Shown here in pieces: positions 1 to 18,962 of a stretch of DNA of 23,148 nucleotides; within the stretch, counting starts at the first letter, position 1; each line of letters opens with the position of its first letter. Under the pieces are notes generated by a model, which worked only from the letters and a program-made list of their open reading frames with translations, did not search any database and was not told the origin of the DNA. Source of the stretch: a virus. The position numbers and the translations under genes were made by a program. The stretch spans positions 1-23,148 of IMG/VR virus record IMGVR_UViG_3300009034_000214, one strand, 5' to 3'.

Positions 1-239
1 TAATCCATCCTGGGTAATTGAGAGACTTCATTAGCCAGTTTTTGCATCAATAGATTGTACTGATTCTTATACCTGGACTCTTCTAATCCACGATATCCAC
101 GCTCTCTTGCTCCAATCTGCTTCATCTGGAAGCCATGGCGTTTTTTCATAACGTCCATCTGCATCAAATACTGAAGAAGCTCCTCAAGTTGTCTATTAAC
201 CTGACCGAATCTACCGCCTCTTTGTTGCATCATAGCCAT
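1..239 (-). CDS. Partial Met/Gln-rich late protein, cut by left edge
   Basis: This is the N-terminal 79 residues of a gene that continues beyond the window. The start ATG at 239 has an AGGAGGGATA ribosome binding site 3 to 4 bases upstream. The protein begins MAMMQQRGGRFGQVNRQLEE and is polar, rich in Gln, Met, Arg and Lys, and probably almost all helical (QLEELLQYLMQMDVMKKR). No domain is recognised. It is the most distal gene seen in the late operon and follows three other Gln/Gly/Met-rich genes. Together they resemble the small internal or ejection-type virion proteins often found at the end of podovirus structural operons, but that role is inferred from position and composition. Confidence 0.8.
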   Translation of the reverse strand, partial: MAMMQQRGGRFGQVNRQLEELLQYLMQMDVMKKRHGFQMKQIGARERGYRGLEESRYKNQYNLLMQKLANEVSQLPRMD

Positions 240-249
240 TTATCCCTCC

Positions 250-666
250 TTATCCTCCCCAAGTAGGTAAATTCTCGAATATTCTTGGTGCTGGAGTGGT
301 TGTGGCTGGAATCTCTGGAGGCGTGAGAAAGTCATAAATATTTATACCCTGTTGCCCTGGAGTAACCGGAAGATTAACATCGCTTCCTGCTCCCTGTCCC
401 TGCATGAGCATCATAAGGATCATCATTAGGTTTCCCCAATTCAAAGGTTCTTCTGGCTGAGTTAGGGTAGATGTACTAACAGTCCTTCGCGGTTGTCCGG
501 CTCTAGCCATCTGGGCATTAATATTCTCAGCTATTCCTTCAAACCTTCTTTCTGGTAGATCTGCAATAGTGGTGCGTTGCTGAGTAGCCTGCTGTCCCCC
601 TGGCCTTGTTAGGCCCTGTAAAAGCCCTGGTGCTAACATGAGTAGATATTTCAAAATATCGTCCAT
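250..666 (-). CDS. Late-operon protein, Gln/Met/Pro-rich, unknown
   Basis: A 138-residue protein starting MDDILKYLLMLAPGLLQGL, whose N-terminal 20 residues form a hydrophobic helix. Residues 22-75 are polar and Gln/Arg/Thr-rich. A second Met-rich hydrophobic stretch, NLMMILMMLMQGQG, lies at about residues 79-92, and the C-terminus is Pro/Thr-rich. No known domain is seen. The last codons TGG GGA GGA TAA supply the Shine-Dalgarno region for the next gene. The start is one base away from the stop of the cysteine-rich gene at 668. Two amphipathic or membrane-active segments in a late virion-region gene would fit a protein that interacts with membrane during DNA delivery. That is inference. Confidence 0.75.
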   Translation of the reverse strand: MDDILKYLLMLAPGLLQGLTRPGGQQATQQRTTIADLPERRFEGIAENINAQMARAGQPRRTVSTSTLTQPEEPLNWGNLMMILMMLMQGQGAGSDVNLPVTPGQQGINIYDFLTPPEIPATTTPAPRIFENLPTWGG

Positions 667-667
667 C

Positions 668-1720
668 TTATCCTCCCCATCCAGCCATTTGAGTCTGGAG
701 AAGCCGTAAAATCATCTCCAAAGCCTGAGCGCCTTCTCCACGCCTGGCTGCATTTATAGCCTCTCTAAGCTGAGTGTAGCCCATTCCTCGTCCAAAGATA
801 TCGCCTGCTGCACCGGTGAAGCCAAGCAGATCCTGTTTAATCTTTTCTTCCTGACCAACCATAAGATCACGCTTAAGATCTCCTATCCGTCTTTCTGTCT
901 CCCAAGCTTGTTCCTGCGGTATCCCTACTCCTGCACCTGTGCCTAAGAGTCCCTGAGAGGCAAGCCAATCCGTCATTTCTTCTCTTCCTCTTCCACCAAT
1001 ACCACGAATCTGCTCGAAATCTCTTCCGAATATAGCTCTCATAGCAGCATCGGAGAATCCAGGTCGCCTTCCTAAAAACTCTCCTCCCCTTTGCATAAGC
1101 CTTTCATAAAGCGCTCGAAGCTCGGGAGGCCAATCAAACTCTCCTAATCCATCTCCAGGTTGTTGTGCGCCTGGATCATGCGCTATCATCCATCGAGTAC
1201 ATTCGCATCTTCCTTTCATGCCTTCTTCATATAGTTCCCATCCTTGTCCACCTCTAGGAACCCAGGTATAGTTTGAAGGGCATTTACTTCCATCTGGTGC
1301 AGGAAAGGCTACTCCACATTGGCAGTCCTGGTAGGCAGGTCGAGTAGGCCCCATCTTATAACATTCGCCTTCCTCTCCCTTGCCCTCGCATATACCATTT
1401 ATACAACGCTGTCCTTCAGGACAATCGCGATGATCAACGCACTCATCACCCACTCCACAGCCAGCTATACAGCTTTGATAGGTAGTAGAGCATTTGGCTA
1501 TGCAGCCAGCGCTTATCCCTTGACCGGTCTCGCAAGCTTCCCTGCAGGCATCAAAGGTTTCTCTACATCTAGTTCTGCAGTCTCCTTCACCACCAGGACC
1601 AGGGCCAGGAACGCGAGGGTCTGGCTCTCTCGGTCCTCTTCTTCCCTCTCCTGGTCGGCCCAGAGCTTCAGGCGTTGCTCCTATGCCTCTTAAAATTGCA
1701 TCAACGTATGGGCTTGGCAT
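668..1720 (-). CDS. Cysteine-rich virion-region protein (18 Cys)
   Basis: A 350-residue protein with three zones. Residues 21-47 are Gly/Pro/Arg-rich. Residues 48-174 hold all 18 cysteines. Residues about 190-350 are Gly/Arg-rich and helical, and end in WGG. The cysteine zone starts with two copies of C-x3-C-x6-C-x3-C (C48/52/59/63 and C73/77/84/88). A motif of the type C-x5-DCPxGxxCxNGxC follows at 94-111. That last motif is common in small disulfide modules of secreted proteins. The C-terminal part resembles the neighbouring Gly-rich late proteins. A ribosome binding site lies within the last codons of the upstream gene (GGGAGG). It may be a disulfide-stabilised virion or tail-tip component. 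Alternatively some cysteines bind metal. The function is not known. Confidence 0.8.
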   Translation of the reverse strand: MPSPYVDAILRGIGATPEALGRPGEGRRGPREPDPRVPGPGPGGEGDCRTRCRETFDACREACETGQGISAGCIAKCSTTYQSCIAGCGVGDECVDHRDCPEGQRCINGICEGKGEEGECYKMGPTRPAYQDCQCGVAFPAPDGSKCPSNYTWVPRGGQGWELYEEGMKGRCECTRWMIAHDPGAQQPGDGLGEFDWPPELRALYERLMQRGGEFLGRRPGFSDAAMRAIFGRDFEQIRGIGGRGREEMTDWLASQGLLGTGAGVGIPQEQAWETERRIGDLKRDLMVGQEEKIKQDLLGFTGAAGDIFGRGMGYTQLREAINAARRGEGAQALEMILRLLQTQMAGWGG

Positions 1721-1721
1721 A

Positions 1722-2120
1722 TTAGAACCTCCCGCCTAATTTTGGTAATTTCTCACGCTGCACAGGCTGTCTTAATAATGAAGAGATACGTCCCCCTTCA
1801 CGCCTACCGGCACCTCTATATCCAGCTAGAAGCTCAGGCCACTGTTCACCCAAAAGCCTCATGATCTCTTGAGTCGAGGCACTCAAGCCTCCTTGACCTC
1901 CAGGCATCCCTGCGCCAGCAAGGAGTCCATATCTGCCAAGGAGATTTTCCATCATCCAAGGATCTAAGAGGCCGACAAGTGGAGATTGATAGCCACCTGG
2001 CTCCTGCTCTGTTATGGTTTCCTGCTGCTGTTGCTGAGTCCCTCCACCACCACCAAATAGACCGCCAATTAGATTGATAATCCCAGGTATAGCCAATAAC
2101 CATGTTGGGTCAAAAGGCAT
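1722..2120 (-). CDS. Small Gly/Gln-rich protein with hydrophobic N-terminus
   Basis: A 132-residue protein. Residues about 7-24 form a hydrophobic helix (LLAIPGIINLIGGLFGG), followed by a Gly run and a Gln run at about 25-36. The remainder is Gly/Leu-rich, and the C-terminus is basic (LPKLGGRF). ATG at 2120 is preceded by AGGAGGT, made from the last two Arg codons and the stop of the upstream gene. No family is recognised. A short hydrophobic helix followed by a glycine/glutamine linker recurs in many small phage virion-associated proteins. Together with the genes at 250, 668 and 1-239 it forms a compositionally similar terminal set. A membrane-interacting or internal virion role is possible but unproven. 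Confidence 0.75.
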   Translation of the reverse strand: MPFDPTWLLAIPGIINLIGGLFGGGGGTQQQQQETITEQEPGGYQSPLVGLLDPWMMENLLGRYGLLAGAGMPGGQGGLSASTQEIMRLLGEQWPELLAGYRGAGRREGGRISSLLRQPVQREKLPKLGGRF

Positions 2121-2122
2121 TT

Positions 2123-2446
2123 TTACCTCCTATTTGCAAAACCATTTAACTTAATAATAAAAGTCCTGTGCCATTCTTCGTTGCTCCTTTCTAAGGAGTC
2201 GAATTTAGCACCAAATGAAGAGCAAAATTTATGAATATCTAAAAGAGAATCATCTATTTTTTCTAAAGCTTTTTTGTTATCTCTAATTAAATTATCATGC
2301 TCCTTGCAAGGAAATGGATTGTTTGGATTGGAGATAATTTTATTTCTTCCATTCTTTTCGGATCTCCATTTAACAAGGATCAAAATTACATTGGCTAAAA
2401 GCCCAATAACTATTATAAGTGCATAAACTAATTTTATTTCTATCAT
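2123..2446 (-). CDS. Small membrane protein with coiled coil (holin-like?)
   Basis: A 107-residue protein with one N-terminal membrane helix at residues 5-26 (VYALIIVIGLLANVILILV). A basic stretch, a PCKEHD motif at 46-51 and a long helical, probably coiled-coil region to about residue 95 follow. The topology would be a membrane anchor with a soluble helical tail. Phages often carry such proteins near the end of the late operon, in the general class of XhlA-like or accessory lysis proteins, but no holin motif is decisive here. ATG at 2446 overlaps the ribosome binding site region GGAGGATAA made by the last codons of the lectin-like gene. The stop is followed at once by the next gene. It could instead be a virion membrane-contact protein. 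Confidence 0.75.
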   Translation of the reverse strand: MIEIKLVYALIIVIGLLANVILILVKWRSEKNGRNKIISNPNNPFPCKEHDNLIRDNKKALEKIDDSLLDIHKFCSSFGAKFDSLERSNEEWHRTFIIKLNGFANRR

Positions 2447-3412
2447 TTATCCTCCATCCGGCCCAAGATGTCTCCGCATCTCAAAGTGGTCAAAATAAGC
2501 TGTAACTGGAGCATAAGTAGCTGCCCAATTTTGGACAAATATTCCTGTCGTTATTACAGCAACAGCAGTAGGCCATTGACCAGAAGCAGGAGTCCCTTGA
2601 GGTAGAGTATATAAGTCAGTCCATGTATCTCCATCAGAACCATAAGAGAAAACCATATTTGACGCACCCTTATGGGCAAACCCTAGCCTTATCCTAAACC
2701 ACGCACTATCGGCAGGCCAAGCTACATAAGCTTGTTCTGCACTCCCTACCCTCCAAACTTGAAGTCCATCTTTAGGAGTAGCATCCACTCTAATCCTATG
2801 GAAAAATATCGCAGTATCGCTTCCATAGCCTGTTGCATTATAGCTTACAAATATCCCTGCTCTTGTTAAATCAGTATCTGTCCAATCTTTAAGATGGACA
2901 ATTATTTCACAGGGGAATCCTATAAGCCCGATTATTAACTTAGGAGCTTCATTCGCAGTAGTTGACCAATCAGCATGAGTGCCTGATGTAACGCCTAGCT
3001 CAACAGACCTATCTGTTTCAATTATGCTTTTCCCTGCTGCCGATGCTCCCTTCCACTGCATCCAAGTCCAATGAATAGAGCTATCTCTGAATTTATCTAA
3101 ATAAACTAAATCATCTTCACCAACAGTCGGGATAGTTATCTTATCAAAACCAAGCTGTTGTCCTTGTACTTGAACATATTTCTTATCATCTCCAGAATAA
3201 GAATCCGGAGTATCCTCGAGCTTAAGAAAGTTCATCCCAGTAATTTCATTTACCTCGATGCTCACGTTGTCCACCGGTAAGCCTACACGCTCGGGGATAT
3301 CATCAGGCAAAAGCCCTTCATTAAGTGGCACTCCACAGGTATTGAAAGCCGGATCCAACCAAGGATTTAGCCTCGCTCTTTCGGCTTCATCAACATCCCA
3401 AATAGTTGGCAT
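2447..3412 (-). CDS. Lectin/ConA-like virion surface protein
   Basis: A 321-residue protein. Residues 1-110 form a non-catalytic N-terminal part ending near a beta-rich linker. Residues about 112-316 read as a concanavalin-A-like (LamG/DUF1349-type) jelly roll: SIHWTWMQWKG, EIIVHLKDW, FHRIRVDATPKDG, WFRIRLGFAHKG, FSYGSDGDTWTDLY and the closing strand TAYFDHFEMRR. The phrase SxDGxxWxxL and the terminal Y[FI]D strand are characteristic of that fold. Such domains bind glycans, so a role in adsorption to the host surface is plausible. The gene follows the nozzle gene with a 2-base gap. A similar jelly roll lies inside the nozzle protein itself. It has no catalytic motif of a depolymerase that I can see. 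Confidence 0.75.
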   Translation of the reverse strand: MPTIWDVDEAERARLNPWLDPAFNTCGVPLNEGLLPDDIPERVGLPVDNVSIEVNEITGMNFLKLEDTPDSYSGDDKKYVQVQGQQLGFDKITIPTVGEDDLVYLDKFRDSSIHWTWMQWKGASAAGKSIIETDRSVELGVTSGTHADWSTTANEAPKLIIGLIGFPCEIIVHLKDWTDTDLTRAGIFVSYNATGYGSDTAIFFHRIRVDATPKDGLQVWRVGSAEQAYVAWPADSAWFRIRLGFAHKGASNMVFSYGSDGDTWTDLYTLPQGTPASGQWPTAVAVITTGIFVQNWAATYAPVTAYFDHFEMRRHLGPDGG

Positions 3413-3414
3413 CT

Positions 3415-6063
3415 CTAATCCCCTTTAATTTCTCCTTTCCTTTCAAATATTCCATACCAAAGCTTAAACCAATTCAATTTGAGATCACTACCAACGTCCT
3501 CGTTGTTGGAGTATTTGACTGCCAGATATTTCCCATTAAGGGCAAGCTCGGACTCGTTCTTGATAGGCAATCTTATACTCTGATCGGTAGCTGCTGGCGT
3601 GGATCCGGCTAAAGTTTTAGTTGCTCTAGAAGTTTTTGCAAAATTTACATAATAATCTACTGTCAGATTCTTGTCTGTTGGACATTCATACTCATGCTCA
3701 TTCAATCTAACTTGAGAATACCTCGGAAATGTTAGCCATGATGTGCGGACGTAGGCATCGATATTTGTTCCTCCATCATTGGTTCCGCTTTCAGCCTCAT
3801 ATAGATAACCATCCCTGGTGCCTACATAGTTTTTCAATACTTTATTGGTATCCCTGGCCTCCATAAAGCATGATGGGGTCTTATGAAAGCCGAAAGTATA
3901 AAAAGCATTTTTGAAGTAATTAACTACACAGGTTATTGCTGAATTTCCTCCGGTTCTATCAGGAATATTGAGCCAGATCTCGTTGTTAGATCTGTTTGGG
4001 CCAGCGATGATCAGATCCAATTTAGATCCTGATTTATCGATGGTATCCAATGTTTTCTTAATCGCCATAGACCAGAGAATTGTATAAGCCTGGCAGCCAT
4101 TGAAGATCTCCCATCCTCGATCACTCACAAAAGTCAGGAGTCCGAAAGTAGATTGAAGGCTCCAGGGCGCTATGCAGCCGAAATCATCGCAAACCTCATA
4201 TCTCCCATAATAGCCACCCTGTTTTTTTCGGATCATGTAAATCGATTTTCTCTTAAAGGCATAAAGATAGCTCTTGTAGTCAACGATTCCGGTTAGCTGA
4301 TCATCTGATTCTCCGCGCCTGACGCTAACAAACTTCTTGTCTGTATCGAAGGCATCCGGAATATTTGTTTTGGAGTAATAAATAATGTTTTCATCTGCAT
4401 CTCCAATCCAGACGCGATCATCAAAAAACTCAACAAATTTCCCCAAGGGAGGAACATCGTTCTCTTCTGACATAGCTGCTCCAAGCAATCCATCGGAGAC
4501 ATTATCAACGAAAGAAGTCGTGGTATTATCATTTATTGTTGCCATCAAATAAAAGGCCGTCCCCCCTGGCAAGGTTCGATAGATCCTTCTTTGATCTACC
4601 TGGCTGTCGCTTGAGGTTGGGATACTTGAGAGCGTAACTTTTTGGTGACAGGGGTTTGCAGTTAGGGCAGAACAGGTGAGGTCCCAGTAATCCCCAGAGG
4701 TGTGTCCTGTAATCGCTCCCCAATTTAACTCTATTCCGTAATTCAGATACATTTTGAGAGTTATATTCATCGTCTGGGTATGCCATGTAGTCCCTCCATC
4801 GTAAGATATTTTAACCGTATCCGGAGTCGTGCCATCTATCTGGACTCGAACATCGATATCTTCTTCCCCTGTATATGTTCCTCCGGCTGTAAGATCATCA
4901 AGACCCGCACCGGTGATCGTTGGAGAGCCAACCAGACTTTTAATCGGATTCGATTCTCCAGGGTAATTCCCTGAATTTCGTCTATAGGTGATAGCATATC
5001 TATAAAGTCCATTTAATTCTCCTCCTGAAGCATCGCCTATTTTCATGTAGTCGATATAGGCATCCGTAGATGTGGCATCCCCATAAAGACTGACCTGGAC
5101 TTTACCGGCATCGGTATCAACTTCCGGTCCGATATTAAAAGCTCCATAGGCTTTTCCGTCCATGTAAATTTCGCAATAGGGATCATTAGGATCTGTTGTG
5201 TTTATGTAAATCTTAAACTCTAGCCAAGTGTCAATCTTTATCGGGAGATAGCCACTCACCCAATAAAAGCCGTCATAAACAGCAAGATCGTTCTGGTCGA
5301 TTCTAACCTTGGTCTTGATTTTGCCGTTATTTATCTCAAAAAGGAAATAATCATTGTCTGGATAAACTCCGAAAACATCGAAATAAGCAGAAAATTCTAT
5401 GGTGATTTCATCGCCTACATCAGCTACAGTCCGATACATTCTGGCGATATCCCCTGCGGTCCCTGTGTTTAAGAGCCTCATACAGCTTTTTGAATCAAAG
5501 GTGGCCTGAGTGCTTGCTGCCGAGCCTTGATCATCATCTGTCCAATCGCCTATAGCAGCCATATCCTCATCTAAAAGGGTCGCGTTATAGGCTTCTGTGA
5601 GCGTAGGAATGGTTGCTGGAGCAGTTATCCCAAACTGGACCTTGGTGCCATCTGCAAGAATCATTATGTTTTCTATTTCAGTAACAATAATCTGCTTCCC
5701 CTGGATCTCTAAAACCTTAACCGGATGAGCAAGAGTAGAGGCCCAAGTGTGGATTGAACCCCAGGCTGCAGCGCCAACCTTTCTCCAGACCTTTTCTTCA
5801 GTAATCACAAGCTGGCAGAAGGCAGGTGTCGAATCATAGTAGGTATGGTAGCCGAAGATATCTTTAGTGCCGAAGGTGCTGGAGGTGGCGATTGCAGTCC
5901 CTAAGCCATCTCTCTTTTCTATTCTATCCCCGACATCAGAAAGTCGCCAGTTGTGCATCTGGATAAGCTTATTGATGGGGACGTTGGTAACTGCAGAGAC
6001 TTCATCAACGCCATCATTTAAGACGATCTCTATCGGTCTTAAGTTCTTTGTTTTGTCAATCAT
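3415..6063 (-). CDS. Tail nozzle / hub beta-propeller protein (P22 gp10-like)
   Basis: An 882-residue protein with the layout of podovirus tail nozzle or tail-hub proteins (P22 gp10, T7 gp12 class). The entry motif is NWRLSDVGDRIEKRDGL (about 38-54). Propeller-type strands recur later (FFDDRVWIGDADENIIYYS at 546-564, YLYAFKRKSIYMI at 599-611, GLLTFVSDRGWEIFNG at 641-656). It would extend the portal-adaptor channel at the tail tip. Two extra modules are visible. A jelly-roll-like insert lies at about 160-345. A small beta module at about 383-468 holds TYTGEEDIDVRVQIDGTTPD and ITGHTSGDYWDLT. They flank a split FN3-like unit (350-380 and 472-525). The start ATG overlaps the adaptor stop as TAATG. 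It is larger than P22 gp10 (about 470 residues), largely because of the inserts. Confidence 0.85.
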   Translation of the reverse strand: MIDKTKNLRPIEIVLNDGVDEVSAVTNVPINKLIQMHNWRLSDVGDRIEKRDGLGTAIATSSTFGTKDIFGYHTYYDSTPAFCQLVITEEKVWRKVGAAAWGSIHTWASTLAHPVKVLEIQGKQIIVTEIENIMILADGTKVQFGITAPATIPTLTEAYNATLLDEDMAAIGDWTDDDQGSAASTQATFDSKSCMRLLNTGTAGDIARMYRTVADVGDEITIEFSAYFDVFGVYPDNDYFLFEINNGKIKTKVRIDQNDLAVYDGFYWVSGYLPIKIDTWLEFKIYINTTDPNDPYCEIYMDGKAYGAFNIGPEVDTDAGKVQVSLYGDATSTDAYIDYMKIGDASGGELNGLYRYAITYRRNSGNYPGESNPIKSLVGSPTITGAGLDDLTAGGTYTGEEDIDVRVQIDGTTPDTVKISYDGGTTWHTQTMNITLKMYLNYGIELNWGAITGHTSGDYWDLTCSALTANPCHQKVTLSSIPTSSDSQVDQRRIYRTLPGGTAFYLMATINDNTTTSFVDNVSDGLLGAAMSEENDVPPLGKFVEFFDDRVWIGDADENIIYYSKTNIPDAFDTDKKFVSVRRGESDDQLTGIVDYKSYLYAFKRKSIYMIRKKQGGYYGRYEVCDDFGCIAPWSLQSTFGLLTFVSDRGWEIFNGCQAYTILWSMAIKKTLDTIDKSGSKLDLIIAGPNRSNNEIWLNIPDRTGGNSAITCVVNYFKNAFYTFGFHKTPSCFMEARDTNKVLKNYVGTRDGYLYEAESGTNDGGTNIDAYVRTSWLTFPRYSQVRLNEHEYECPTDKNLTVDYYVNFAKTSRATKTLAGSTPAATDQSIRLPIKNESELALNGKYLAVKYSNNEDVGSDLKLNWFKLWYGIFERKGEIKGD

Positions 6064-6782
6064 TAATCTTCAAAAGGACTCCTTATATCAAAGAAAGCAG
6101 GATCGCGTGTTGAAAAGACTCGCTTCTCATGGAATGAAGGACCTAAGAATTTTGGCTGTTGCTGGATTCTATAGCCTATAACATCAGTAACTTTCGTAAG
6201 CCATTTTTGATAGAGAGCAGCCATTGTCTCCATCTTTCGAGATTCAACAGTTTCAGCGATCAGCACCCCTGCATAGAGGGGAATGAGCTTATGAGCCATG
6301 CGCGGAATATATGCCGGCCCTCCAGCTACCATAGTTGCAGCCTCGGCTGCTATGATCCAGCATCGATAATGATTTGTTTTAGCTGCGCTCGGAGTAGGTA
6401 TGAACTCAATATTATCTCCATAAAGAGTCCAGGCCAAAGGATCGGCTTGAGTCTCACCTACATACTTCCTATAGGTTTCACTCGTTCTTTCAATGTAGGG
6501 AAGTACCCTGGGAGATTCGTTGGTAACATTTCTGTTCATTGACCAGATCTGGATCCATTCCTTTGTCAGCGTATAAGGATTCGTATTGGCTGTGAGCGAG
6601 ATATCCTCATAAGTCAGGAAGCACTCTGGGATAAATTCCACCAGATCTAAAACCACCTGTTCACAGGCCATGTTGATATAGAAATCCAGCAATACATCTC
6701 CGGAAGGGAATAAGGCTCCAGAGTCGGTTTCCTGCTCCTTGATGAGATTATGAACTGCTGTGCGGATCTCGGCTAAAGTCAT
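6063..6782 (-). CDS. Head-tail adaptor protein (SU10-adaptor-like)
   Basis: A 239-residue protein matching the general profile of podovirus adaptor proteins (P22 gp4 / SU10 adaptor class). The helical N-terminus reads TLAEIRTAVHNLIKEQ. FPSGDVLLDFYINMACEQV then lines up subunits around the portal. A beta module follows with ISLTANTNPYTLTKEWIQI. The segment WTLYGDNIEFIPTPSAAKTNH and a C-terminal helix region with HKLIPLYAGVLIAE close the domain. Adaptors form a dodecameric ring under the portal and carry the nozzle, which is the next gene here. ATG at 6782 follows GGAGGTAAA and overlaps the previous stop as ATGA. Its own stop overlaps the nozzle start as TAATG, which suggests coupled translation of two stoichiometric tail parts. 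Confidence 0.85.
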   Translation of the reverse strand: MTLAEIRTAVHNLIKEQETDSGALFPSGDVLLDFYINMACEQVVLDLVEFIPECFLTYEDISLTANTNPYTLTKEWIQIWSMNRNVTNESPRVLPYIERTSETYRKYVGETQADPLAWTLYGDNIEFIPTPSAAKTNHYRCWIIAAEAATMVAGGPAYIPRMAHKLIPLYAGVLIAETVESRKMETMAALYQKWLTKVTDVIGYRIQQQPKFLGPSFHEKRVFSTRDPAFFDIRSPFED

Positions 6783-10980: not shown

Positions 10981-11955
10981 TTAAGTAGTAGCAATCAATC
11001 CGGTTCTATCATGACAACCAACGACCTCAAACTGACCTGAACCAATAAGAATTTCCTTGCCAGAAGTTCCACAAGTTACTGCATCCTCATTGAAAAAACA
11101 ATTTGTCATTAAACCATTCACAACGCCGAAATTTTCCCAAAACCTAGATTCATCTGGTATTCTGTCAAAGAAACAGCTATCAATAAGAACGTCCCATTGG
11201 CTGCCATTTATCCTTGCATATCTAAGCGCAACAGCAGAGGCAGAGCCAGCACCAAACCAACAGCCAATAATTCGATTAGACCAACCTGGTGTAGTTGAGC
11301 AATCAATCCATAGCTCATAACCTTGATATTCCTTAAACTGCTGGTTGAAATAACAATTAACAAGAGAAAGCCATCTTCCACCTAGGGTTCTAAATTGTCC
11401 GCTTTGGAATATGCAATTAAAAAAGCTTGCTCCAGCGTGTCCTGCTGCACTTCCACTACTATTTGCCAAAGTAACCAGATATAAAGGTGCAGTCGCAGTT
11501 CTATCCTCTGGCATCTGAAAATAGATATTTTCGCAGTTAAAATGAGCATTATTGACTGTAAGCCCAACAAGATTCTCTGTTTTAGGAATTAAAACTCGAA
11601 CAGGAACAGGACTCCTGTGTGGTGCAGATGCTCCAGATATGCCAATAATATTCAGACCATCATCGGCATAAGCAGTTACAATGCTTTCATTGTAGTATCC
11701 AGAATCTTCATAGGTTGGAGTTTTAGGGCGAACATAAATAACATCACCTCTACTGGCTGCGGTTACTGCAGCCTGAATAGTAGCCTTGGCAACTGAGGGT
11801 CCTTTTCCGGTATAGTTGTCACTTCCATTTGTGCCATCTACATACCAGACATCAGCCCAGGGTTCAAAAAATGCTGATTGAACCTGTTTATTGAATTTAA
11901 CAGGTATATTGATTTGAGTAACCCCATCAGTCTTGGGGCCTTTTAACCATGACAT
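10981..11955 (-). CDS. Right-handed beta-helix protein beside capsid genes
   Basis: A 324-residue protein. Residues 1-34 are an N-terminal adaptor part. At 37-77 the segment WYVDGTNGSDNYTGKGPS leads into an alpha-capped first coil (ATIQAAVTAASRGDVIYVRP), the usual opening of a pectate-lyase-like parallel beta-helix. Rungs follow with repeated (N/G/S)-C-x-F units near 181, 201, 232, 261 and 286. No catalytic Asp/Arg set of a polysaccharide lyase stands out, so a structural or binding role is more likely than hydrolysis. It follows the capsid and the small beta protein, so it may be a head fibre or decoration rather than a tailspike. ATG at 11955 has AAAGGAGGTTA upstream, just after a structured leader. 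Confidence 0.75.
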   Translation of the reverse strand: MSWLKGPKTDGVTQINIPVKFNKQVQSAFFEPWADVWYVDGTNGSDNYTGKGPSVAKATIQAAVTAASRGDVIYVRPKTPTYEDSGYYNESIVTAYADDGLNIIGISGASAPHRSPVPVRVLIPKTENLVGLTVNNAHFNCENIYFQMPEDRTATAPLYLVTLANSSGSAAGHAGASFFNCIFQSGQFRTLGGRWLSLVNCYFNQQFKEYQGYELWIDCSTTPGWSNRIIGCWFGAGSASAVALRYARINGSQWDVLIDSCFFDRIPDESRFWENFGVVNGLMTNCFFNEDAVTCGTSGKEILIGSGQFEVVGCHDRTGLIATT

Positions 11956-12439: not shown

Positions 12440-13723
12440 TTAACTCGAAGCGTGTTTGATCGCATAAAGGCGACCAAGCGCTTGAGGTTTTTCAGTTCCG
12501 AAGTTGTAGTACCACACCAGGTTTGCTGTCCATTCATCTTTACCTTGAACTCGAGTTAGGATCCTTCCGCTATCTCCAGGTAGCCAAGCCATCCCATTTT
12601 TTTGGGGGGCATAGACCTGAAGGAAATTGGTATCCAAGAAGAACATATTTCCGTCTGGACAATCTTCATCCATTATGATCGGGAGCTTTCCTCCCTTTCC
12701 ACCGTAGAATGATAATCCGCTTGTTCCTCCCCACATCGCTGGTTCGTTGGGGAGAGTCTTGTCTTGTTCTAGGATCTCATAATATGCACGCCAAATGATG
12801 TCGTTGGTGATGATCACCTTCACTCTTCCATATCTCTCAACTTTGTGAATGGTCTTTAGGATCTTGGAATTGGTGATTGCTACAGAACCCATATTCTCTT
12901 CATAAGCTTGCGCCCAGGTGTTAGTTGCTCGATCTATGTTCTGGAAGTCTGTCTGAGTTACCCCTGTGTATGGATCTGCTGTGGCTACGATTCCCCTTAG
13001 TCCTTGAGGGACTCCGGTTCCTGCAGCCTGAGAAGCAGCATAGGTATCGTGGTCGAAGATCTCTGCATTATTGGAGCAAGTAACATTGGATGCCATTGTA
13101 ACCGTTGAGGTCCCATCGGCATCATCAGCGAGGGTAGAGATCTCTACGTCCTCTTCCTCTAAATTTCCGGAAGAGTCGTAGATATCAATACTCATTCCTT
13201 CATCAAGGTACTGATGAGCTAGGGTGTATCCATTCGAGTCTTGTCCGAAGTAGCGATTGTCGATTGAAATGGTTGTGTCGTTTGTGTTTGCAGCATCTAG
13301 TTGAGCAAGCCGGCCAGATCCATCTCCCCAGAACTGGCGATTCAGCTTGTTGGATATGTATATCATGATTCCTTTGGTTTCTGCCTTGATTAACTCCATG
13401 ACCGCGCCTTTTCCCTGTCCGCAGGCCACCGCTAAATTATCGAACTGCAGCGTGGCGTACATCCCTCTTTTCATGTAGAGATGGAACTCATCATACACTC
13501 CCTGCTTTGCAGTAGGAAATGTGGTGCTAGATGATGGCCTAGCAGATTTGGGTGTAGATGTTAGGCATTTAAAGACAGCATATCTACCAAGGCATTTTGC
13601 GCTGTCTGTTCCGAAGCGATCATAGAGGACTGTGTTTTCCCTGACCTCAATATTCAGGCCAGGGAGTATGTACTCAAGGAACAATTTATCAGTTGCACTT
13701 GTTCCCATTGACATAACTGCCAT
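12440..13723 (-). CDS. Major capsid protein, HK97 fold
   Basis: A 427-residue protein with the features of an HK97-fold capsid subunit. A short N-arm precedes the start of the E-loop region (about 55-90, STTFPTAKQGVYDEFHLYM). A long spine helix (about 104-130, KGAVMELIKAETKGIMIYI) ends in NRQFWGDGSGRLAQL, a phrase common in phage capsid proteins. Ig-like and P-domain strands fill the centre. ITNDIIWRAYYEIL and the C-terminal WTANLVWYYNFGTEKPQALG belong to the A-domain and closing strands. It assembles around the scaffold encoded by the preceding gene. ATG at 13723 has AGGAGGATAAGAC upstream. There is no sign of an N-terminal delta domain, which fits the presence of a separate scaffold. Confidence 0.88.
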   Translation of the reverse strand: MAVMSMGTSATDKLFLEYILPGLNIEVRENTVLYDRFGTDSAKCLGRYAVFKCLTSTPKSARPSSSTTFPTAKQGVYDEFHLYMKRGMYATLQFDNLAVACGQGKGAVMELIKAETKGIMIYISNKLNRQFWGDGSGRLAQLDAANTNDTTISIDNRYFGQDSNGYTLAHQYLDEGMSIDIYDSSGNLEEEDVEISTLADDADGTSTVTMASNVTCSNNAEIFDHDTYAASQAAGTGVPQGLRGIVATADPYTGVTQTDFQNIDRATNTWAQAYEENMGSVAITNSKILKTIHKVERYGRVKVIITNDIIWRAYYEILEQDKTLPNEPAMWGGTSGLSFYGGKGGKLPIIMDEDCPDGNMFFLDTNFLQVYAPQKNGMAWLPGDSGRILTRVQGKDEWTANLVWYYNFGTEKPQALGRLYAIKHASS

Positions 13724-14993: not shown

Positions 14994-17048
14994 TTACATC
15001 TCTTCTGCTGGTGCCGGACCACCTAGCTCTTCGCCCATCCCTGGCCCTTCTTCCGGTGTCGGTCCTGGCATACCGCCTCCTGCCTCAAGTTCAGCTTCCA
15101 GTCCTGCTCCTGCTTCAGCACCGGCTCCTGGTTCCTCTGCGCCTGCTCCTTGCTGCAGGAAGGCTAAAAATTCAACGTGCTTCATTATGTGTTTCTCAAA
15201 TTCCTTCCATTTGGCTTCAGGCCATTTCTGAACATCCTCTTGCTTGCCGAAATCAGTATGGGTATTTACGTGAATAACATGATCATCGTGGATCCAGGGG
15301 AACACTCCACCTTCATCTCTTTCTTTATCATAAGTATCATCAAGAAAAGCCTGATTTTCTCTGAGCGCTTTATCTCTATCGACAATATCTGTTCTCAGCG
15401 CATGGGAGGCTGTCCCCATGTTTAGAAGCTCTATGATCTTCATCCTGTCCTCTTCCTTGTTGAAGATCCCTTCTCTCCATAGCTCAAGCAGGAGTCGCTG
15501 CTGGATAGTATTTGACTGATTCAGGCTTACTCCAATATCAAGTCTCATGTCAAAATTCTGGCTGAGATCTGATTTTGAGAAATATTCCACAGCAGCCTTC
15601 CGGTTCTCGCCTACGATCTTAATCATTCTCTCCTGGCTATAGTGCATATCCATAAGCTCTAGCCGGAATTGGTTTCTCTCCAGAATTACCTTATTGGTTC
15701 GCTTCATCATCGGATTGAGCTTTATGTTCTCCTGTTCCAGCATCATTGAATACAGAGAAGCTGGCGCTCTGGAGGCATACTGAGGAAGCCTGGCATATGA
15801 AACCTCATGGACGTTGGAGACTTTATCTACAGAGCCTTCCAGAAAGTCCCTGAAGGCCAGCACTTGCTGAGAAAGCTCAGGCATCCTTACCGCTACCGGT
15901 GGTCCACCTCTATTGAAATCCACCTCGACAATCTCAAAATCATCTATAGTCATAGATTGCGCACGTTTCAGCGCGCCTTTCCCGACTGCCATCTTTGGTC
16001 GCCATGCCTCGATATGCTCAAAGATCATTGACACCATGCGGTTAAAGGCTCTCTGTATATTCTGGACAAAGTGAAGAGGACCTTTCGCCCAGAATGAGTA
16101 ATTTGTCTTTTTATAAAAATGAAAGAAGTAAGGAAGTTTGTATTTAGGACTAGGGTTCTTATCTCCCCACAGGATTTTACCTCCACAGGAAAAAATCATC
16201 CTGCCTTTTTTAAGCTCATCATTCGGCTTCTGCCAATGTTCCCTGAGAATATAGGTATCTTCTTCTTTGTCCTTTTCTTCCTCAATTTCGTGCATCCCCT
16301 TGTATTTATCACCACCACCTGATTTTTCTCCCATTTCATCAATCTCTGCTTCGGTTAGCTTAGGAAAAGCCTTTTTAAGCTTCTGCCTAGTTACTTCTTT
16401 AAGCTCGATTATCCACCTCATTTGTTTGGGTTTCTTTGCTACCGGATCTGGCCTTATATTAAATATCGGCACCACTTCTCCCATGACCTCTCCTGGTGCT
16501 TTCACATCTTCGATTTTCCCCCCTTTTTTTTCTAATTTCATATATCCATAGGCTTCGTTATCCCAGATCCATTTCTCACAAGCTAATCCAGGGCGAAGAA
16601 GATCGTATTTTACGTCCTCCATAAACTCTTCCATGAAGTTTACGTAGTCGTTATAATCAATGAGCTTCGTGGCCACAGCAGCGCCTTTAATATCCTTTTG
16701 TTCTCCTGAGTTCGGCACTCCTATAGAGTGATGGAAGAAGTTAATCTTCCCTTCAAGAGTTTCATTCAAGGGCTTCATAAGGTTTACAACAATCTTTGCT
16801 TTCCTGATTCTTAACTCCACATCTTTAACAGCGCCATCTGCTTCATTCCAAAGAGCATATTGGTTGCCATCCTCCCATGAAATCAATTCCTTCCATTTGC
16901 CATGATGCACCTTGACTACTGGATGCTTCGTTACCTGATCATCTACCCAAGAGCAGTAATCTTCTTCGGTATCGAAGTCAGGAAGATAATCGTACTTTTC
17001 TTCCTTCTTCTCTTCTTTTTTCTCAGGTTCTTTCTTTTTTTCAGCCAT
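14994..17048 (-). CDS. Portal protein
   Basis: A 684-residue protein in the size range of podovirus portals (P22 gp1 is 725). Position between terminase and scaffold, length and composition support the call. Residues 1-17 are a Lys/Glu run. The body contains LVRPGL-type helical wing segments (EEFMEDVKYDLLRPGLACEK), RPDPVAKKPKQMRWII, and the crown or stem region FVQNIQRAFNRMVSMIFEHIE. RAPASLYSMMLEQENIKLNP follows and resembles the conserved central helix region of P22/N4-type portals. The last 50 residues are a Gly/Ala/Glu/Pro low-complexity tail. Twelve copies would form the packaging channel. ATG at 17048 has a weak GAGGGAATAA site. Confidence 0.85.
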   Translation of the reverse strand: MAEKKKEPEKKEEKKEEKYDYLPDFDTEEDYCSWVDDQVTKHPVVKVHHGKWKELISWEDGNQYALWNEADGAVKDVELRIRKAKIVVNLMKPLNETLEGKINFFHHSIGVPNSGEQKDIKGAAVATKLIDYNDYVNFMEEFMEDVKYDLLRPGLACEKWIWDNEAYGYMKLEKKGGKIEDVKAPGEVMGEVVPIFNIRPDPVAKKPKQMRWIIELKEVTRQKLKKAFPKLTEAEIDEMGEKSGGGDKYKGMHEIEEEKDKEEDTYILREHWQKPNDELKKGRMIFSCGGKILWGDKNPSPKYKLPYFFHFYKKTNYSFWAKGPLHFVQNIQRAFNRMVSMIFEHIEAWRPKMAVGKGALKRAQSMTIDDFEIVEVDFNRGGPPVAVRMPELSQQVLAFRDFLEGSVDKVSNVHEVSYARLPQYASRAPASLYSMMLEQENIKLNPMMKRTNKVILERNQFRLELMDMHYSQERMIKIVGENRKAAVEYFSKSDLSQNFDMRLDIGVSLNQSNTIQQRLLLELWREGIFNKEEDRMKIIELLNMGTASHALRTDIVDRDKALRENQAFLDDTYDKERDEGGVFPWIHDDHVIHVNTHTDFGKQEDVQKWPEAKWKEFEKHIMKHVEFLAFLQQGAGAEEPGAGAEAGAGLEAELEAGGGMPGPTPEEGPGMGEELGGPAPAEEM

Positions 17049-17056
17049 TTATTCCC

Positions 17057-17443
17057 TCAAAAAACCTTATCATGCTCAGTCGGCTCGGCTGGTTTTGTGC
17101 TTATAGCCATCTCAGTCGATTTTGCTTCAAGCTCAAAGAATTTAGACATCTTCTCTATCATGCTTGTTTCGAGTTTAATAAATGAAGCCATGATTATCCC
17201 TGTCCCCTCTTGTTCCTCTTTTAATTCATTCATAGCAACCTTAAGCTGAGAAACTTCCTCAACAAGCTCTTCTCTGAGTTTCACCACCTCATCAACAACC
17301 TGGACCATCGCTCCTTCACCTGTGTTGATTTTATCCATTTTCTCATTGAGCAGATGCGTATTCCTTGAGATCTCAGCAAGTCTCCTTATTGCCTCATCTC
17401 TTAGGTTTAAAAGCTCTCTCCTAGTCTTTTTAAAAAAGCGCAT
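17057..17443 (-). CDS. Coiled-coil protein between terminase and portal
   Basis: A 128-residue protein starting MRFFKKTRRELLNLRDEAIR. Residues about 5-80 are a long amphipathic helix with heptad spacing (VVDEVVKLREELVEEVSQLK), and no Cys is present. It overlaps the end of the large terminase gene by 14 bases. AGAGGAG lies 7 bases before ATG at 17443. The stop is 8 bases before the portal start. No family is recognised. It could be a packaging accessory or portal-assembly helper, inferred from position only. Confidence 0.7.
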   Translation of the reverse strand: MRFFKKTRRELLNLRDEAIRRLAEISRNTHLLNEKMDKINTGEGAMVQVVDEVVKLREELVEEVSQLKVAMNELKEEQEGTGIIMASFIKLETSMIEKMSKFFELEAKSTEMAISTKPAEPTEHDKVF

Positions 17444-18962
17444 CCATGTTCTCCTCTAATTTATTATCCAGGCCAAGCATCCGATCTATCTCCTCCTGAA
17501 AGCCTGGTGATGGTTCTGGTTCCTCTCTTTCTTTCTCAGCTTTCTTCGATGGGATATCAATTTCATCAAGCTGATAGGCTAGAGAGTCTAAGACATCATC
17601 ATTTTCGATATCAGGATAATTTAAAAGATCATACTCAAGGTCGCCCATCCCCTGAGCTAAGAATATTCTTCCGCTTTCAAAATACTGTTTGAGTTTGTGG
17701 ATCCTACTTTCTTTCTTCCTGCTTTTATGCTCAACGAAACGGAAGTCCAACTTTTCAGCATAATGCTCAACGGTATCTGCTATGGTAACTGAATACATCA
17801 TTTTCTCAATGAAGGTCTCATCAGGCTTAAATTCCTTCTGCAGCCTGGCGATCCTCCCTATTAGCTTCATGGGCGTTGTCCAGATCTTCTCTGTAAAAAC
17901 GATATACATATGCGCTCTCTCGTCCCAATCGATAATTGTAATTCCTGTAGCATCATTGGATTCTTTCTCTGTCCCTGCAGGATCTATAATCAAGTGCCTG
18001 ACATAGTTATCCGGTAGGAATCTCCAATACTTGATCCACTTCTCATCACAAAGCCTCTCTGCTTCCTCTTGAACTTTAAGCTCATACTGAGATGAGGCGA
18101 TAGACATTCCCTGCTCGTTGAATTTTTCCTCAAAGTCCTCCCAGGTGAACATTTCCGGAAAGGTGAGTCTTGCTCCTTCCCTTTTTATCTTCCACTGTTG
18201 ACCTTCCTTGTAAACAACTGGAGTCTTACCTTTGGCAGTAAGGGCATAGGGGATGCAGAATTTATCGTAGGTTTTGATTTTCTTAATCAGCATGGACATT
18301 AGATCTAGTGGATGGAATGGGGTTCCGACATCGATCTCCAATCCAACTTTGAATTTCTTATATTTAGTGATGATTGATTTCTGGAACTTCCATTTGCGGA
18401 TGCAATTTTTTCTCTCTTTCTCAGAGAAGGCATTATCATCGTTCACTAAGTCGTCATTGATGATAATTGTATAGTGGCGCGAAACCTGTTTAGTATCGAG
18501 TGAGGAAACGTGGAATTTCACCCACTTGTATTCAACCTTGTATCTCGAGAATTTACGATAAACTCCCTCATGGGGGTATGGGACTTCAGGAAAAATGTCA
18601 TGCAATAAATGACACTCGCGGAGTGCTTCCCTGAAGTCCTCCATAAATGCTTCAGCGTTCTCTTTGGTGGCTGTGTTATAACAGATTGATATTGGCTTCT
18701 TTGTTACGATATGCCAGCAAAAAAGCCATAAGCAATATCCGAGCAAAACTGTAGTCTTGAATGATCCACGAAATACGCTTATGAGCTTTTTATAAGTTTC
18801 TCTCTTCGCAAGAGTTAAAAAATCACAGAGCCTTTGATGGAGCAATCCAAAGTTGTGGAATTTATCGAGCCAGGTAGTAACCAGAACTTGAGTCTCAAAA
18901 AAATAGAGATCTCTACACTTCTCTATCCATTTGGATCTCGGCTGATAACTAAATGGGTTCAA
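17430..18962 (-). CDS. terL: Terminase large subunit
   Basis: A 510-residue DNA-packaging motor. The N-terminal ATPase has a P-loop at 65-71 (RGSFKTT), where Phe stands in place of the usual Gly before Lys. The Walker B-type strand IIINDDL (166-172) and the GTP coupling motif near 213-215 follow. The C-terminal RNase H-like nuclease shows the first acid in LIIDPAG (D327). The second lies near 382-386 (ETFIEKM). The third is in NDDVLDSLAY (455-463). It would cut concatemeric DNA and drive it through the portal. The start is TTG at 18962, inside the small subunit gene (14-base overlap). No in-frame ATG is near, and GGAGG/GAGG stretches lie upstream. The acidic C-terminus overlaps the next gene. 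Confidence 0.92.
   Translation of the reverse strand: MNPFSYQPRSKWIEKCRDLYFFETQVLVTTWLDKFHNFGLLHQRLCDFLTLAKRETYKKLISVFRGSFKTTVLLGYCLWLFCWHIVTKKPISICYNTATKENAEAFMEDFREALRECHLLHDIFPEVPYPHEGVYRKFSRYKVEYKWVKFHVSSLDTKQVSRHYTIIINDDLVNDDNAFSEKERKNCIRKWKFQKSIITKYKKFKVGLEIDVGTPFHPLDLMSMLIKKIKTYDKFCIPYALTAKGKTPVVYKEGQQWKIKREGARLTFPEMFTWEDFEEKFNEQGMSIASSQYELKVQEEAERLCDEKWIKYWRFLPDNYVRHLIIDPAGTEKESNDATGITIIDWDERAHMYIVFTEKIWTTPMKLIGRIARLQKEFKPDETFIEKMMYSVTIADTVEHYAEKLDFRFVEHKSRKKESRIHKLKQYFESGRIFLAQGMGDLEYDLLNYPDIENDDVLDSLAYQLDEIDIPSKKAEKEREEPEPSPGFQEEIDRMLGLDNKLEENMDALF

Follow-up and report, generated by a model that had tools for sequence, protein, structure and literature searches.

The DNA that we analysed, referred to here as the window, is an entire virus record of 23,148 bases, and its gene content is that of a podovirus. 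The features that bear on this analysis are as follows:

17430-18962, minus strand, terminase large subunit (phrog_38, E 1.8e-56)
14994-17048, minus strand, portal protein (E 6.4e-24)
12440-13723, minus strand, major capsid protein (E 2.6e-18)
6063-6782, minus strand, SU10-type adaptor (E 2.5e-7)
3415..6063, minus strand, large tail/stabilisation protein (phrog_511, E 9.7e-16)
2123..2446, minus strand, protein of 107 aa with a coiled coil and, N-terminally, a single hydrophobic segment, found upstream in five of five phages
1722..2120, minus strand, cassette neighbour of 132 aa with a hydrophobic, Gly-rich N-terminus and no cysteine, kept in five of five phages
668..1720, minus strand, gene for the cysteine-rich protein (350 aa, 18 cysteines), identified as an open reading frame and by its homologues
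250..666, minus strand, cassette neighbour of 138 aa with an AGQPR..ST.T motif, a hydrophobic segment and no cysteine, kept in five of five phages
3..239, minus strand, start of a coiled-coil cassette protein without cysteine, cut by the contig end (339-350 aa in relatives)

The cysteine-rich reading frame is the second-last complete gene ahead of the contig end. It starts with ATG on the minus strand immediately downstream of a purine-rich GGGAGG, and a plus-strand reading of 668-1720 meets many stops. Two other genes of the window deserve mention. The product of 2447-3412, the gene next after that of the stabilisation protein, retains in its N-terminus a short motif (NPW-D--F or something similar) across relatives, and the remainder of it is replaced among L018, L019, L022, L023, L028, L033 and L036, as would be expected for a tail-fibre anchor with swapped tips. 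At 10981-11955, between the capsid and tail genes and outside the cassette, lies a 324-aa protein with nine cysteines (2.8%) and weak tail-fibre matches.

All 18 cysteines of the 350-residue protein fall within residues 48-174, at positions 48, 52, 59, 63, 73, 77, 84, 88, 94, 100, 106, 111, 120, 133, 135, 147, 172 and 174, and the C-terminal 176 residues are free of them. Residues 48-63 (CRTRCRETFDACREAC) and 73-88 (CIAKCSTTYQSCIAGC) each have an exact C-x3-C-x6-C-x3-C spacing, with starts 25 residues apart, and residues 99-111 (DCPEGQRCINGIC) match DCPxGxxCxNGxC. An earlier note on this DNA had reported the cysteine count, the two units and the motif, and our recount agrees with it on all three; the strand, which the note did not give, is minus. 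Confinement of the cysteines to 127 residues was seen in none of 20,000 shuffles of the whole protein. When residues 41-180 were shuffled 200,000 times, 110 trials produced at least two such units (approximately 5.5e-4, for a motif picked post hoc); that the CX3C spacing is meaningful is better supported by the homologues than by shuffling. The note had also called the units duplicated. In the genetic sense this is not supported and probably not the case, since their DNA is identical at only 24 of 48 bases and they have almost no non-cysteine residues in common. The two units read better as facing arms of a single hairpin.

On this basis the protein can be divided into four parts:

1457..1579, minus strand, residues 48-88, predicted hairpin of two helical arms (48-63 and 73-88) that carry four CX3C pairs, from spacing and AlphaFold2
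1388..1444, minus strand, residues 93-111, DCPxGxxCxNGxC-type mini-module, from sub-threshold Dumpy_DPY and TIGR04201 matches and predicted strands
1199..1363, minus strand, residues 120-174, six-cysteine C..[GN]Y....CxC module, from a pattern scan, with low AlphaFold2 confidence
671..1129, minus strand, residues 198-350, conserved cysteine-free helical C-terminal domain with a QGLLGTGA motif, from the alignment of homologues

When residues 42-117 were modelled with AlphaFold2 without an alignment, we observed helices at 48-64 and 73-87 in a block with a pLDDT of about 80-90, followed by a pair of short strands where the DCPxGxxC motif lies (mean pLDDT 77.2, pTM 0.52). The facing helical hairpin that had been proposed from the letters is thus also what AlphaFold2 predicts from the single sequence. 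Full-length modelling with five sequences again produced the hairpin, with helices at 45-66 and 71-86, and was otherwise poor (mean pLDDT 40.7). Positions 0, 4, 11 and 15 of a helix share one face, so that the two units are able to lie opposite one another; antiparallel geometry would then pair C48 with C88, C52 with C84, C59 with C77 and C63 with C73. Disulfides in the cysteine region are likely, judging from the even cysteine numbers, the paired spacing, the DCPxGxxC and CxC module types and the lack of a metal-family match. By eye, neither the window protein nor any homologue shows a signal-like segment at the N-terminus; synthesis presumably takes place in the cytoplasm, where the protein would be reduced.

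Searches with the window protein returned no match in an IMG/VR peptide scan, in INPHARED by tblastn at E 10 or in a PHROGs profile search, and a PDB sequence search yielded only insignificant matches to Dumpy, ADAMTS-1 and fibrillin. No family match reaches its cutoff. The nearest are TIGR04201 (Myxo_Cys_RPT; E 0.012, score 15.7 against a curated cutoff of 25) and Pfam Dumpy_DPY (E 0.017-0.16, score 12.4-15.6 against 27), with weak EB-like matches arising alongside Dumpy, and the best of these sub-cutoff matches to the cysteine region span 19 residues. The family search gave no enzyme or metal-cluster family, the kind of match that the earlier note had said would speak against it, and zinc-finger and copper-storage families gave no match up to E 10. 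Neither Foldseek against PDB and BFVD nor VIA-align returned a significant match for the 76-residue model; small Tim proteins and alpha-hairpinins are absent from those lists, but so short a hairpin (76 residues) has little power as a query, and their absence does not tell against either. A literature search on cysteine-rich podoviral virion proteins returned nothing relevant.

Relatives were reached in IMG/VR by way of the portal, terminase and stabilisation proteins, the last of which (3415..6063) served as the synteny anchor. We found four homologues, all in uncultured podoviruses and all in the same gene slot:

G007, L015:697-2019, 440 aa, 16 cysteines
G013, L028:14814-15380, 188 aa, 4 cysteines
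G014, L042:1210-1776, 188 aa, 4 cysteines
G015, L033:16495-17601, 368 aa, 10 cysteines

The family thus has five members, of which G013 and G014 are close to each other, and its alignment is thin. IMG/VR scans with the C-terminal domain returned solely relatives already found, and GTDB genome contigs gave no match to the stabilisation protein or to the C-terminal core. Common to the homologues is a cysteine-free helical C-terminal domain with a QGL[LM]GTGA core, over which G007, G013 and G014 are 43-50% identical to the window protein. The N-termini, by pattern scan, are wholly different. That of the window protein has four CX3C pairs and two other modules; G013 and G014 have one CX3C hairpin (CX3C-x14-CX3C); G015 has a hairpin (CX3C-x12-CX3C) and a C..GY..CxC module; and G007 has four C...C..[GK][YFH]...CC modules and no CX3C. 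The cysteine region therefore opens with CX3C-x12/14-CX3C in three of the four homologues, and the six-cysteine module occurs once in the window protein and once in G015, with about four CC-type copies in G007. N-terminal cysteine modules are exchanged between these phages and the C-terminal domain is kept. The cysteine number is even in all five members (18, 16, 10, 4 and 4), which taken alone is weak, at about 1 in 16 given about four independent lineages.

In the relatives, the gene order runs from the tail fibre to a small protein with a hydrophobic segment and coiled coil (with one or two extra genes at this position in G007), a Gly-rich protein of 110-144 aa, the cysteine protein, a protein of 98-138 aa, a coiled-coil protein of 339-350 aa and a very large protein, of which the stretches read are between upwards of 1,100 and about 1,870 aa long. 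This order also holds in the window up to the contig end inside the coiled-coil gene, short of the large gene. The large protein of G014 has matches to phrog_22602, which groups virion structural proteins (E 1.7e-12), and to gp123 of Cellulophaga phi18:3 (E 2e-11), a protein that has been detected in virions by mass spectrometry, and in G014 and G007 a gene for an SLT-domain transglycosylase directly follows the large gene. This layout is that of podoviral ejection cassettes as reviewed in PMC8954989. The placement of the gene in a late virion cassette, claimed from the window alone, is thus supported by gene order, from which we infer the virion location.

Like T7 gp14-16, P22 gp7/gp20/gp16 and N4 gp50-52, the window protein occupies a slot after the tail genes and beside a very large virion-type protein, as its relatives show, and it shares with podoviral ejection proteins a helical character, cysteine-free neighbours and the lack of a visible signal peptide. 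It departs from them in its cysteines: the ejection proteins of T7, P22 and N4 have none or one, and the window protein has 18, all in its N-terminal part, although its neighbours are free of them. Neither T7 gp14 nor P22 gp7 resembles it (hhalign probability 0.1 for both, against a thin profile with Neff 1.8), and homology of the C-terminal domain to these proteins, or to the equivalent protein of the distant podovirus MW202554, was rejected as there is no profile similarity. Its assignment to an ejection cassette is accordingly one by position and composition. The equivalent slot of MW202554 (L002:12031-13095) holds a cysteine-free 354-aa protein, the C-terminus of which, by eye only, resembles an S74-type chaperone domain.

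The frequency of cysteine in ejection proteins was also counted more widely. The flanking cassette proteins of the five phages contain no cysteine in 8,669 residues, compared with 76 in 6,660 for the remaining late proteins encoded by the window and the related phages; the Poisson probability of the absence, for the first 6,872 residues and ignoring shared ancestry, is about 7e-29. Cysteine density in the 350-aa protein is thus even more unusual than had been claimed, the surrounding cassette proteins being cysteine-free. The ejection proteins of T7, P22, Sf6, SP6 and P-SSP7 contain three cysteines in 9,665 residues, compared with 124 in 14,826 for the other late proteins, which makes cysteine by far their most depleted residue (ratio 0.04, with histidine next at 0.51). 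None is present in N4 gp50 (first 3,008 aa), gp51 and gp52 or in phiKMV gp35-37. The epsilon15 proteins gp14-17 have five in 2,574 residues, indicating that the exclusion is not absolute. Cellulophaga phi18:3 gp120-123 have none in 2,764 residues, and three of these four were seen in virions by mass spectrometry; the candidate cassettes of vB_Pun_Y3 (4,982 aa) and MW202554 (2,001 aa) have none either. For these last three phages the ejection role was assigned here by position and composition, and their evidence is correspondingly weaker. Over these eleven other podoviruses (L053, L054, L055, L056, L057, L058, L059, L060, L061, L062 and L002), ejection proteins or candidates contain eight cysteines in about 28,200 residues, five of them from epsilon15, compared with about 0.8% in other late proteins.

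A lack of cysteine has been described for the N4-type virion RNA polymerase and tied to passage through the tail or to the oxidising periplasm (PMC3715699, PMC3915230, PMC2784036). In the literature covered, the principle is published for this polymerase only, and the wider count over eleven podoviruses is made here. The T7 ejection proteins function in the periplasm (PMC8954989).

We tentatively favour, as a reading that is plausible but still open to considerable doubt, that the cysteine-rich protein belongs to the DNA-ejection cassette of the virion and that its N-terminal modules become oxidised only outside the reducing cytoplasm, with the periplasm of the next host as the probable site. 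The conserved cysteine-free helical C-terminal domain would be the virion or cassette part, and the N-terminus would be a set of exchangeable disulfide modules, namely a predicted four-rung helical hairpin, a DCPxGxxC mini-module and a CxC module. Synthesis and packaging would take place in a reducing cytoplasm with the thiols free, and the protein would leave through the narrow portal and tail. Its cysteines would pair on arrival in an oxidising compartment, for which the next host's periplasm is the likeliest candidate. There the modules would adopt stable folds and so hold the ejected assembly in place or bind a component of the envelope. The cysteine-free neighbours favour such oxidation after ejection, which would be an unusual use of oxidation in phage infection.

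A more specific version, which we regard as possible but rather unlikely, is that host oxidation folds a protein ejected in a reduced, flexible form and thereby turns it into a trap or ratchet that works in one direction only and holds the DNA-injection channel in place, with the exchangeable modules serving like heads for different host envelopes. The cysteine protein puts the exclusion idea directly to the test, since either it is not ejected or host oxidation is a folding switch, and either outcome would be something new on how short-tailed phages cross the envelope.

The first of these outcomes, a virion protein that is not ejected, is the alternative that fares best, and we consider it unlikely without dismissing it. 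Here the cysteine modules would sit outside on the tail or head, become oxidised after lysis and act as an exchangeable host-surface binding head or as a stabiliser. By the argument published for the N4 virion RNA polymerase, a cysteine-rich protein would be a poor ejection substrate; if cysteines do hinder ejection, this protein may be the non-ejected one, and the argument favours a displayed module. The complete swapping of N-terminal modules on a retained C-terminal domain is as seen in host-range proteins, and the gene comes after the tail-fibre gene, although swapping is compatible with ejected and displayed modules alike. Against display, the neighbours on both sides are cysteine-free, as ejected proteins typically are, an adhesin is already provided by the tail-fibre gene, which has a variable C-terminus of its own, and no known adhesin or decoration family was matched.

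That the protein is instead a late product outside the virion, acting in the infected cell or its envelope in a role such as lysis or superinfection exclusion, we judge improbable. The transglycosylase gene that follows the large gene in two relatives would fit such a role; however, no signal peptide or membrane segment is visible, and the gene sits within a cassette of five genes, the last of which encodes a large protein of virion type, as judged by the phrog_22602 match and the homology to phi18:3 gp123.

Binding of zinc or Cu(I) by the cysteines in the reducing cytoplasm or capsid, in the manner of reduced, zinc-loaded twin-CX3C or helical copper-storage proteins, appears quite improbable. 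The cysteines are dense, CX3C pairs on a single helix face are able to hold a metal, and reduced Tim9 and Tim10 bind zinc through all four cysteines (PMC3759932). This must be set against the silence of the zinc-finger and copper-storage families even at E 10, the resemblance of the DCPxGxxC and CxC/CC modules (x14 loops) to extracellular disulfide modules and the even cysteine numbers in all homologues.

Recent capture of the cysteine region from host secreted proteins, the origin suggested in the earlier note and echoed by the weak Myxo_Cys_RPT and Dumpy/EB-like matches, is very improbable, as GC3 is the same in the cysteine region (0.356) as in the C-terminal rest of the gene (0.349) and within the range of nearby genes, all matches lie under their curated cutoffs with the best spanning 19 residues, and cysteine modules at this slot in the window and the four other phages argue against a one-off capture. 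The homologues show an older swapping of modules among phages.

For the favoured reading, in which an ejected protein is fixed by oxidation, a parallel in working is offered by the small Tim proteins of mitochondria, which pass through the TOM pore in a reduced, unfolded state and are locked by oxidation afterwards (PMC3759932). These Mia40-oxidised proteins carry twin CX3C motifs on a helix-loop-helix. The same CX3C-spacer-CX3C arrangement occurs in three homologues, with spacers of 14 (G013 and G014) and 12 (G015), and the two helices are predicted for the window protein, for which a similar passage through a pore in the reduced state is proposed. The window protein differs in having four CX3C pairs with an inner spacer of 9 and two further cysteine modules, and in being a viral protein of 350 aa with a large C-terminal domain. 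No small Tim match was obtained in Pfam up to E 10 for the window protein, G013, G014 or G015, and the parallel is one of working, not of membership.

Plant alpha-hairpinins likewise combine C-X3-C-Xn-C-X3-C spacing with a helix-loop-helix (PMC11591084), as the window protein does by its spacing and predicted fold. They are short antimicrobial peptides with four to six cysteines, whereas the window hairpin is a module of a 350-aa phage protein with no visible signal peptide. The top Foldseek match of the 76-residue model, which is not significant (E 1.0, probability 0.54), is the nemertean neurotoxin B-IV (PDB 1vib), a helical hairpin with eight cysteines in four disulfides (PMC6410017). The window hairpin also has eight cysteines, and the likeness is an analogy of shape with no implied function. 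Residues 93-111 of the window protein have the DCPxGxxCxxGxC motif of the TIGR04201 (Myxo_Cys_RPT) and Pfam Dumpy_DPY repeats, but in one copy only and with scores below the cutoffs.

Two observations concern the relatives. The G007 record (43,306 bases) is listed as linear, and a protein encoded at its end (L016) recurs at its start (L051); the record probably has overlapping ends, although no exact repeat of 21-400 bases turned up in its DNA. In addition, the large cysteine-free protein contains a sigma-70 region 4-like helix-turn-helix in L044:3436-8829 (residues 943-986) and in L016:13704-19307 (residues about 1502-1589), with a Pfam match (E 1.6e-4) just under the cutoff and PHROG sigma-factor matches, and this protein might deliver a transcription-acting domain alongside the DNA.
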